From Streptomyces katrae (lineage in GTDB: Bacteria > Actinomycetota > Actinomycetes > Streptomycetales > Streptomycetaceae): a stretch of 64,000 nt of DNA. The notes under the pieces were generated by a model. It made no database searches. It saw nothing but the letters and a program-made list of their open reading frames with translations, and was not told the DNA's origin. Below, in pieces: positions 1-18,696 of this stretch. Numbering within the stretch: position 1 is the first letter of the stretch; each line of letters begins with the position of its first letter. Made by a program: the position numbers and the translations under genes. The stretch lies in the NCBI RefSeq assembly GCF_002028425.1, contig NZ_CP020042.1, positions 2,604,001 to 2,668,000 of the forward strand. Reading direction: 5' to 3'.

Positions 1-155
1 AGTTCGAGGTCGACGAGCCGGTCGAGCCCGTCGCGCACCTGAGCCTCGGTCATACCGAGCCGGACGCACAGATCGGCCACTCCCCCGGCCGGGTCCGCGA
101 GCATCCCCCGGTAAACGGCCTCCACGTGCGTGTCCAGCCCCAGCGCTTCCAGCAT
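1..155 (-). CDS. LuxR-family transcriptional regulator, N-terminal fragment (runs off window)
   Basis: Only the first 51 codons are present; the gene continues past position 1. The start is the ATG at 155-153. The visible part begins MLEALGL, and the segment EAVYRGMLADPAGG followed by LGMTEAQVRDGLDRLV matches the TrmB-like winged-helix segment found at the N-terminus of many streptomycete LuxR-type regulators whose C-terminus carries the GerE/LuxR HTH. That C-terminal domain lies outside the window, so the family call is inference from the N-terminus. It is transcribed divergently from the secreted peptide gene at 430, with 274 bp and one long dyad between them. That arrangement suggests it controls, or responds to, the peptide. 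Confidence 0.7.
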   Translation of the reverse strand, partial: MLEALGLDTHVEAVYRGMLADPAGGVADLCVRLGMTEAQVRDGLDRLVDLE

Positions 156-240
156 CCGTGCCCCCCGGCTCCGATCCGTACCGCAGGACGACCGTCCGAC
201 GGCTCGACCGATCCTAAAGGTGTGCAGGTCAAAGGCCCCA

Positions 241-275
241 GGCGGCACCATGGTGTCAGTCACCTTGGTGCCACC
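241..275. promoter_or_regulatory. 35-bp interrupted dyad in the divergent regulator/peptide intergenic region
   Basis: Two 15-nt arms (241-255 and 261-275) match at 13 of 15 positions as an inverted repeat around a 5-nt centre; the arms contain GGCACCA and TGGTGCC. It lies 86 bp upstream of the regulator start and 155 bp upstream of the peptide start. There is no T-run on either side, so an operator is more likely than a terminator. Confidence 0.55.
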
Positions 276-429
276 CCGGACCCCTTCTGCGAGAGCTTCC
301 GGGCCAGCAGGATGGTGTTCACCGGGACGGCGGGGCACGGAGCCCCACCCCAGGCCAGGGCCGAAAGGCCGGACCGGTGCAGCGCGCCGACCACTGTTCC
401 AGCCAGCCGTTCTCGTACCGGGGGATCTC

Positions 430-630
430 ATGTCTCGCACCGCCCGCCTCGTCACCACCGCCGCCCTCACCGCCCTCCTCTCCGCCGCCGTGACCACCAC
501 GGCCACCGCCACGGAGCAGGGCCCGGGCGTCATCAGCTGGGACTCCGTGCGCGCCTCGGCCCCGGCCACGGCGAAGGTCATCAGCTGGGACTCGGCGCCC
601 CTGGACAAGAAGGTCATCAGCTGGGACTGA
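430..630 (+). CDS. Small secreted peptide precursor with three VISWD repeats
   Basis: A 66-residue product. Residues 1-27 form a typical Sec signal: Arg at residues 3 and 6, then an Ala/Leu/Thr-rich hydrophobic core ending in ATA, a plausible signal peptidase site. The predicted mature part of about 39 residues contains GVISWDS, KVISWDS and, at the very C-terminus, KVISWD followed by the stop. Spacers between repeats are 10 and 6 residues, and the last two repeats are preceded by Lys or Lys-Lys. The ATG at 430 was chosen because a G-rich ribosome-binding site (GGGGA, 421-425) lies just upstream and the signal peptide begins there; the frame is open further upstream but lacks coding character. 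It is divergent from a LuxR/TrmB-like regulator and followed by a strong terminator. I do not recognise a described family. A multi-copy signalling peptide is an inference from architecture. Confidence 0.8.
   Translation: MSRTARLVTTAALTALLSAAVTTTATATEQGPGVISWDSVRASAPATAKVISWDSAPLDKKVISWD
529..627 (+). repeat. Three in-frame 15-17-nt direct repeats encoding VISWD
   Basis: Near-identical copies occupy 529-545, 577-593 and 613-627. The codons are the same in each copy (GTC ATC AGC TGG GAC). Identity at DNA level as well as protein level suggests recent internal duplication or gene conversion. Confidence 0.9.
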
Positions 631-652: not shown

Positions 653-680
653 CGAAGGCGGCCCCCCGGGGCCGCCTTCG
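653..680 (+). terminator. Hairpin terminator after the VISWD peptide gene
   Basis: A perfect 13-bp GC-rich stem (653-665 with 668-680) begins 22 bp after the stop codon. There is no U-tract, as is usual for streptomycete terminators. Confidence 0.7.
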
Positions 681-717
681 CCGCGTTGTGGCGCGCCCCA
701 CACCCCCGGAACGCAGA

Positions 718-751
718 AGTGCCCCGGCCCAGGAGTACTGGGCGGGGCACT
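718..751. terminator. Hairpin terminator left of the orphan tRNA fragment
   Basis: An inverted repeat pairs AGTGCCCC...CCCA (718-731) with TGGGCGGGGCACT (739-751) with one bulged G. It lies just 3' of the tRNA fragment on the minus strand and is probably the original terminator of the tRNA before the island inserted. Confidence 0.55.
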
Positions 752-801
752 GATGACGCCGACGGCACCAGCCGCAACGTTTCTGCGACACAGGCCTCGT
801 G

Positions 802-847
802 GTGGGGCGGGTGGGACTCGAACCCACGGCCGACGGATTATGAGTCC
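802..847. repeat. Left attachment-site repeat: orphan 3' half of a tRNA (46 bp)
   Basis: The 46 bp are identical to 18622-18667, the 3' half of the intact CAU-anticodon tRNA, including the anticodon arm. From 848 on, the sequence no longer matches a tRNA, so this copy is a fragment. A matching 9-mer (CGTTTCTGC) also sits about 15 bp outside both copies. This is the typical footprint of tyrosine-recombinase integration into a tRNA gene. Confidence 0.85.
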
Positions 848-1266
848 TCTCGGGATCTTGGCGGCCCTTGCGCACCAGTGCGAATTCTTGACGTTTCCCC
901 AGGTCAGACGACGTGCGGTGCGATTGACCGCTTCGGCCTTTGCCTGTCTGTTCCTGCCCTTGTGTCCCCTTGGCGTCCCCTTACGGTCCTCGCGCGGCCG
1001 CCCAGGCCGCCGAAGTTCGGGTAGTCCGCGGTCAGGGGCAGGCCCCAAACTCCCGAGCAGCGGATTCCGCTTCCAACGCGAAGAGGCTCCACCCCCGCAC
1101 TTTCGGGGTGGAGCCTCAAGGCCTGCTCGGCCTCCCGTTGCAGTCAGGACATCCCGGGGACCACTGACGCGCGGCGAACCCTGTGCACCCCCTTGCCGCG
1201 CTGTCGCGAACGGCTATTCGAAAGCCCTCGAGCGGCGCGAGCTGTAGGTGAGCGAGCCTCAGCTAC
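848..1266. other. Non-coding left arm of the island
   Basis: Between the left repeat and the end of the DUF499 gene I see no credible gene. Open frames here are long only because of high GC and read through the tRNA fragment. The stretch holds one clear terminator (1083-1117). No recombinase remnant is recognisable. Confidence 0.6.
1083..1117 (-). terminator. Terminator of the helicase-methylase-ATPase operon
   Basis: A perfect 13-bp stem (1083-1095 with 1105-1117) with a 9-nt loop lies about 150 bp beyond the stop codon of the last gene of the minus-strand operon. Confidence 0.7.
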
Positions 1267-18621: not shown

Positions 18622-18667
18622 GTGGGGCGGGTGGGACTCGAACCCACGGCCGACGGATTATGAGTCC
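18622..18667. repeat. Right attachment-site repeat within the intact tRNA
   Basis: Identical over 46 bp to 802-847. Together the pair defines a 17.8-kb insertion whose right end restores a functional tRNA 3' half. Confidence 0.85.
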
Positions 18668-18696
18668 GCTGCTCTAACCGGCTGAGCTACCGCCCC
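18623..18696 (-). tRNA. tRNA with CAU anticodon (elongator Met or Ile2)
   Basis: A 74-nt cloverleaf on the minus strand. The 7-bp acceptor stem GGGGCGG/CCGCCCC is followed by A as discriminator, with D-arm AGCTCAGCCGGTTAGAGC, anticodon loop CTCATAA and T-arm GGTTCGAGTCCC. CAU in a GACTCATAATC context fits either elongator tRNA-Met or lysidine-modified tRNA-Ile2, and I cannot separate these by eye. It is the integration target of the island. Confidence 0.9.

Follow-up and report, generated by a model that had tools for sequence, protein, structure and literature searches.

A precursor with repeated WD-ending motifs beside a TrmB-LuxR fusion regulator: a candidate peptide-signalling system in Streptomyces

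Signalling in Streptomyces is best known through small molecules such as the gamma-butyrolactones. The locus described here raises the question of whether a short, repeated, gene-encoded peptide could be a signal read by the regulator beside it. The window analysed is a stretch of 64,000 nucleotides from Streptomyces katrae (contig NZ_CP020042.1, positions 2,604,001 to 2,668,000). A preliminary description had placed in it a 66-residue precursor with a Sec signal, in which VISWD occurs three times and the final copy forms the C-terminus; it was described as facing a LuxR-family regulator across a gap holding a long dyad. Direct reading of the sequence confirmed the precursor, and the divergent regulator (from 155, minus strand) and the dyad (244-272) were also found. 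The features are as follows.

1..155, minus strand: N-terminal part of R, a TrmB-LuxR fusion regulator (continues to G000:C1:2603169; the same as L009:9169-10155, minus strand, 328 aa)
244..272, no strand: 29-bp dyad, putative operator of R (one of two genome sites at three or fewer mismatches; reversed-pattern control, none)
282..287, plus strand: CCCTTC between the dyad and the 307..326 element, found by eye (CCCTTCC in many relatives), possibly part of the promoter
307..326, plus strand: GCAGGATGGTGTTCACCGGG element, promoter or second operator, 63 nt from the dyad start
430..630, plus strand: P, 66-aa precursor with three VISWD copies (N-terminus judged by hydrophobicity, not SignalP)
529..543, plus strand: VISWD copy 1 of P
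577..591, plus strand: VISWD copy 2 of P
613..627, plus strand: VISWD copy 3 of P, C-terminal

The ORF of P runs from an ATG at 430 to a stop codon at 628-630 and encodes MSRTARLVTTAALTALLSAAVTTTATATEQGPG-VISWD-SVRASAPATAK-VISWD-SAPLDKK-VISWD, the third copy abutting the stop codon. By eye, the three copies are identical in DNA. The N-terminus, read directly from the sequence, is basic and then hydrophobic, and this hydrophobicity and charge, rather than a SignalP call, mark P as a putative Sec propeptide beside a regulator. Searches with Pfam and NCBIfam returned VanX and CU044_5270 matches far under the cut-off; these were taken as signal-peptide noise. The locus as observed is real, and so is the gene family of P.

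The ORF of R starts at 155 on the minus strand and leaves the window leftwards, with a whole length of 328 aa. A GerE/LuxR domain lies at its C-terminus (28.8 bits against a Pfam cut-off of 23.5). In the Pfam scan, PF01978 (TrmB) was listed not for R itself but for its paralogue in the same genome at L010, which is 68% identical; at a distance of about 2.7 kb, this paralogue too has a peptide, in which GIGWD occurs twice. A structure model of the S. lavendulae regulator (L063), 88% identical to R (pLDDT 83, pTM 0.59), found as its best PDB matches TrmBL2 (Foldseek E-value 5.2e-10), TrmB and PLD-like proteins, with the TrmB sugar-binding domain structure 2f5t among the matches by title; whole-chain superposition on TrmBL2 was poor (TM 0.35 by query length). 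A profile of the same regulator matched a NarL HTH (8.1e-8) and, over residues 11-254, TrmBL2 (5box, 1.9e-4). The TrmB-type combination of a winged HTH and a PLD-like sensor was therefore recognised through PF01978 in the L010 paralogue and through the L063 model. Tetratricopeptide repeats (TPR) were absent from the listed Pfam matches and structure-model matches, which comprised HTH, PLD-like domain and GerE instead. In the model, the middle domain lies between two DNA-binding domains and is a possible ligand-binding domain, as a cytoplasmic receptor needs; a WD peptide would be the ligand of R.

To place this pair in a family, a profile of three regulators from the same genome was used, giving 38 loci in named genomes of Streptomyces, Kitasatospora, Streptacidiphilus, Streptantibioticus and Actinophytocola. 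A comparable xxWD precursor (WE in one case) accompanies the regulator at 35 of the 38, that at L081 being degenerate and that at L100 short and weak. The precursor is divergent from R in 19 of these 35, with the stop of P 424-562 bp from the start of R, and lies downstream of R or several kb away in the remainder. The proposal that repeated xISWD-like ORFs would recur near LuxR regulators with a TrmB-like N-terminus, with a conserved motif and divergent spacers, was thus borne out; spacers between motif copies range from 0 to 31 residues, and the precursor tails comprise VIGWD, VISWD, AIGWD, GIGWD, GFGWD, SIGWD, SINWD, GAGWD, NLNWD, NWAWD, TWAWD, SWGWD, SWAWD and FIWD. The accompanying expectation that homologues would keep both repeat and regulator holds in part: 28 of 40 precursors carry multiple copies and the rest do not, and no secreted WD peptide was found in the stretch around the regulator at L090, L091 and L093. 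At L090 a short WD-ending ORF, rather than a secreted P, precedes a gene resembling that for S, a small partner protein described below.

A repeat detector found at least two identical xxW[DE] copies near the regulator in 24 of the 38 loci and a WD C-terminus in 30. In window positions 1001-64000 it found none, and the distal flanks of the 38 loci (134,263 bases) yielded a single match, which is another copy of the family (L083). A repeated WD precursor near the regulator is more than chance. Among 150 genomes of the genus, including this one, clear matches to P (E at most 5e-9) occurred in four, the other three carrying VIGWD three times (two genomes) or five times (one); weaker true members, such as a precursor with two SINWD copies in G039, were mixed with chance matches. 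In the S. katrae genome, P lies within 1.5 kb at only two of 20 stretches around R-like matches, the L010 peptide being farther away. At L081:5251-5513 R has beside it a P that is degenerate (AISWE) and an S split between two frames, and another contig of that genome (L144) has an apparently intact P-S pair with DGIIWD twice.

The motif copies were then compared within and between precursors. The three variable residues are 98% identical within precursors (97 copy pairs) and 45% identical between them (741 precursor pairs), close relatives inflating the pair counts. Left out of this set of 40 were L090, L093, the ORF at 11087 in L078 and the duplicate of the window peptide in L009. The peptides of the window, L068, L081 and L144 were entered manually, and for L085 the reading was begun anew from its own ATG. 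Codon differences between copies, counted only in precursors with stored coordinates, were 52 synonymous against 5 nonsynonymous (93 copy pairs, window P excluded). Three GIGWD copies adjoin one another directly in the L078 precursor (GIGWDGIGWDGIGWD); a complete unit can thus consist of five residues. Internal copies are frequently followed by A-P-A at +2 to +4, and the copies are not at the very end in L075, L087 and L092. The suggestion that Lys or Lys-Lys before the motif directs processing did not survive as a family rule and was rejected, since Lys stands at -1 in only 4 of 94 copies.

Motif class follows the tree of R, with 7 changes against a shuffled mean of 21.2 and none of 200 shuffles as low; the classes were grouped by hand (AISWE with VI[GS]WD, GFIWD with GIGWD, three rows classless), and the clustering is partly shared descent because R and P are linked. 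A comparison for regulator residues that might track S versus G in the motif gave 16 columns in which the window R differs from all nine VIGWD regulators, and in two of them (24 and 242) L068, the other VISWD lineage, agrees with the window. Column 242 (P versus S), the sole one of the two within the sensor domain, may be taken as a lead only.

The dyad in the R-P gap, GGCACCATGGTG-TCAGT-CACCTTGGTGCC, belongs to a family pattern upstream of P in which a dyad near GGCACCAAGGTGCC-n-GGCACCTTGGTGCC is followed by a GCAGGATGGTGnTCACCGG element. Of 40 regions upstream of P, 15 contain both elements and 25 lack the pair; the distance between the two is 63 nt in 12 regions, 64 nt in one and 71 nt in two. 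At three or fewer mismatches the dyad pattern is found at only two places in the S. katrae genome (8.06 Mb, three contigs), the window and C1:4423317-4423345, 1.8 Mb apart, and its reversed control at none. Among 24 genomes of related loci, 15 contain a match and nine none, with one reversed-control match overall. At this threshold no dyad was found at the L010 GIGWD locus, and the dyad of the S. lavendulae R-P gap, which has one extra base, was missed by the pattern. No WD peptide lies within 1.5 kb of the dyad at five of 20 loci read (L107, L114, L121, L122 and L124). The L107 site (G170:C48:5111-5139) has zero mismatches, so other targets or chance sites may exist; L107 and L124, whose dyads are near-perfect, may be additional targets of R.

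The second dyad of S. katrae precedes a 26-aa ORF ending in VISWD, followed by S (about 92 aa) and a secreted CHAP protein. In S. lavendulae CCM 3239, whose P near R has five VIGWD copies, the single dyad match precedes a 21-aa ORF ending in VIGWD and S; G038 likewise has VIGWD five times in P and VIGWD at a distant S with the dyad. The dyad is shared by the R-P gap and the distant VISWD ORF, and the motif matches at both loci in three genomes. All four S. katrae VISWD copies, at loci 1.8 Mb apart, differ from the VIGWD relatives at the same residue, and G to S is the likely direction because the nearest regulators go with VIGWD. As a comparison of sequences, this joint change at unlinked loci is the best evidence that the motif would be read by one shared partner; it amounts to one G-to-S event seen across three genomes, and an end-motif pattern, matching in 4 of 392 genomes of the genus, gave no further case of co-variation. 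The distant WD-ending ORFs (21-26 aa) have no signal peptide and are therefore not Sec-exported; a coupling role is possible for them.

S occurs in 24 of 25 genomes, in 28 copies, of which 25 follow a WD-ending ORF (24 starting 3-7 nt past its stop and one 17 nt), and in 28 of the 38 named loci, a number that includes L081, where S is broken, and L093, where it is weak. P and S are coupled across loci; the window P has no S behind it, and the S. katrae copies of S were found at the distant dyad and at L010. A profile search detected S in 13 of 61 genomes of the genus and a single-sequence search in 6 of 61 relatives including other genera, so the system is accessory. W29 and H40 of S are invariant in both alignments, and neither Pfam nor NCBIfam matched it at the limits used.

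Given the observed gene anatomy, cross-locus conservation and domain make-up of R, we consider it probable that this is a peptide pheromone system, in which P would leave the cell, be cut down to some five residues and re-enter it to be read by R. The window locus would be one half of a two-locus signalling system. P would be made as a precursor, exported by the Sec route and cut outside the cell into several copies of a short WD-ending peptide, which would be VISWD here and VIGWD, GIGWD, SINWD, SWGWD and others elsewhere. The peptide would be taken up again, an oligopeptide permease being the obvious candidate, and would bind the PLD-like middle domain of cytoplasmic R. R would sit on the GGCACC...GGTGCC dyad upstream of P, probably activating P in positive feedback and probably also the unlinked operon of short VISWD ORF, S and secreted CHAP cell-wall hydrolase.

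The output of such a system can be sought in the linked genes. Eighteen secreted-type wall proteins, forming one cluster, lie on the P strand behind P in 11 of the 38 loci, a count from a home-made gene caller that may be low. Three of them were domain-scanned and contain CHAP, Rpf-type transglycosylase and NlpC/P60 domains with FG-GAP repeats; the others were assigned by eye. As a CHAP protein also stands behind the distant dyad of S. katrae, cell-wall remodelling is the likely output. The same linkage, with the signal-peptide-like N-terminus and the several copies, would suit a P that is itself a secreted effector, such as a small antimicrobial, surface-active or wall-associated peptide or a hydrolase cofactor, made in multiple copies for dosage and merely controlled by R. 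We regard this as unlikely, since the joint change of the motif took place at unlinked loci that share the dyad, with ORFs lacking a signal peptide among those changed, and variation between species with near identity within a precursor fits a receptor-matched ligand.

It is more doubtful still that P is the precursor of a RiPP, ribosomally made, enzyme-modified and with several cores. Repeated cores with variable spacers do occur in some RiPPs, and S could be read as a small conserved partner. However, R, S and the wall proteins are the only protein clusters (assigned mostly by eye) to recur in more than four of the 38 loci. Among genes called with the home-made caller, some of them domain-scanned, no cluster of modification enzymes near the precursor exceeds that number, which makes a RiPP improbable. 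The N-terminus of P resembles a Sec signal, and S was modelled (pLDDT 95) as a beta-alpha-beta-beta-alpha-beta ferredoxin-like fold that gave only generic ferredoxin-like matches in the PDB, the best with E 0.0092.

Just as improbable is a reading in which the WD-ending ORF that precedes S serves chiefly for translational coupling: TGGGAC close to its stop would help S to start, and the repeats of P would be by-products. The spacing of 3-7 nt in 24 of 28 copies of S and the distant ORFs without signal peptide speak for it; the window P, however, has three copies with no S behind it, internal copies cannot help S, coupling does not need the V, I and S/G residues, and the synonymous excess of 52 to 5 also argues against it. 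That R and P are neighbours without a functional link, R sensing a sugar or lipid as TrmB does, is very improbable despite the 2f5t match and the lack of P within 1.5 kb of most R-like genes of S. katrae, given the R-P pairing in 35 of 38 loci across several genera in varying orientation and distance and the same dyad in the R-P gap and before the distant VISWD ORF.

The pheromone reading invites comparison with known systems. By the model matches, R resembles archaeal TrmB and TrmBL2 in its winged HTH, linker helix and PLD-like sensor domain, but has an extra C-terminal LuxR/NarL-type HTH and pairs with a secreted peptide. Gamma-butyrolactones are small molecules, whereas the R-P signal would be a gene-encoded peptide, and the gamma-butyrolactone receptor is not known to be related to R. 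In the accessible part of a review of actinobacterial quorum sensing, gamma-butyrolactones of the A-factor type are, like the proposed peptide, diffusible signals controlling Streptomyces genes, cyclic or modified peptides are described in actinobacteria generally, and nothing like the R-P system appears (PMC4748050). Tandem-copy precursors, noted in the preliminary description as well known in fungi, occur in bacteria too: the available portions of two sources describe tandemly duplicated Phr propeptides in Bacillota (PMC11343458, PMC10075063). With Rap-Phr and other RRNPP systems, as these excerpts present them, the R-P locus shares a short Sec-type propeptide beside a presumed receptor gene, identical peptide copies of which one is C-terminal, a short mature unit and a presumed cytoplasmic receptor. 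RRNPP/RRNPPA receptors are defined there by tetratricopeptide repeats (PMC10075063), and membership of R was rejected, no TPR being among its listed matches. The R-P system further differs in a receptor built of TrmB/PLD and LuxR HTH parts, a WD-ending motif, a coupled S and an Actinomycetota host, and its processing and uptake are what we infer. No report of the WD-peptide/R family was found in the open-access PMC literature.

S-like genes elsewhere follow secreted ORFs with the tails CAGCWS, CTSCW, CANCIL, GFGWGVVGK, DLTWG, SLTWGS, HGLIWD and NAQWG. Small secreted ORFs with Trp- or Cys-rich tails also stand beside S-like genes or relatives of R at L152-L159, L166, L174 and L180-L183, their tails including DLTWG, CTSCW, CANCIL, DLGWQ, TTGWQ and DGFGW three times. 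With less assurance than for the signalling role of the locus itself, we incline to the view that these belong to an undescribed class of peptide quorum sensing in which TrmB-LuxR fusions are receptors of gene-encoded Trp-tailed peptides with S as a ferredoxin-like helper. Such a class would extend beyond the WD family, and actinomycetes would hold many private peptide channels. If so, growth, wall remodelling and perhaps antibiotic clusters in Streptomyces would come under a new level of control, in which a transcription factor directly reads a peptide that is encoded by a gene and apparently unmodified. TrmB-LuxR fusions would gain a function, as would the small family S, which has no Pfam or NCBIfam match. 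Since the motif can be read from genomes, ligand and regulator could be paired by sequence in many species.

Several observations concern the surroundings of the pair. A direct repeat of about 130 bp (84%) lies on both sides of it, at window 671-796 and G000:C1:2602925-2603063 (L002), an arrangement suggestive of insertion or duplication of the pair as a cassette, which might account for the lack of S at this locus. The 49 bp at window positions 802-850 are found again, at 98%, at 18622-18670 within a tRNA-Met (18622-18696, minus strand); the two copies resemble att sites bounding an integrated element of about 17.8 kb. Left of the window, L009:4261-8847 encodes an MFS transporter, a phosphopantetheinyl transferase, a thioesterase-like protein (by eye) and a dehydrogenase, which we take to resemble crotonyl-CoA reductase; it is the probable edge of a polyketide cluster adjoining R. 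In the SWGWD/SWAWD group (L096-L099), a 267-aa protein recurs at all four loci about 2-5 kb downstream of R, behind P, as do an AMP-binding-like protein (just under the cut-off) and a class I/II aminotransferase; these may be enzymes that make another small signal or product. The S. katrae genome also contains partial matches to R at G000:C3:4431-5000 and G000:C1:3782043-3782548, the second with an internal TAG stop, which are perhaps remnants of further copies. A phage search gave three weak partial matches, and the regulator matched in 80 plasmid records. Eight loci from these records were read, all on linear plasmids: a secreted Trp-motif ORF is present in five, in one case with GIGWD three times and in another with DGFGW three times, and an S-like gene, by eye, in six.
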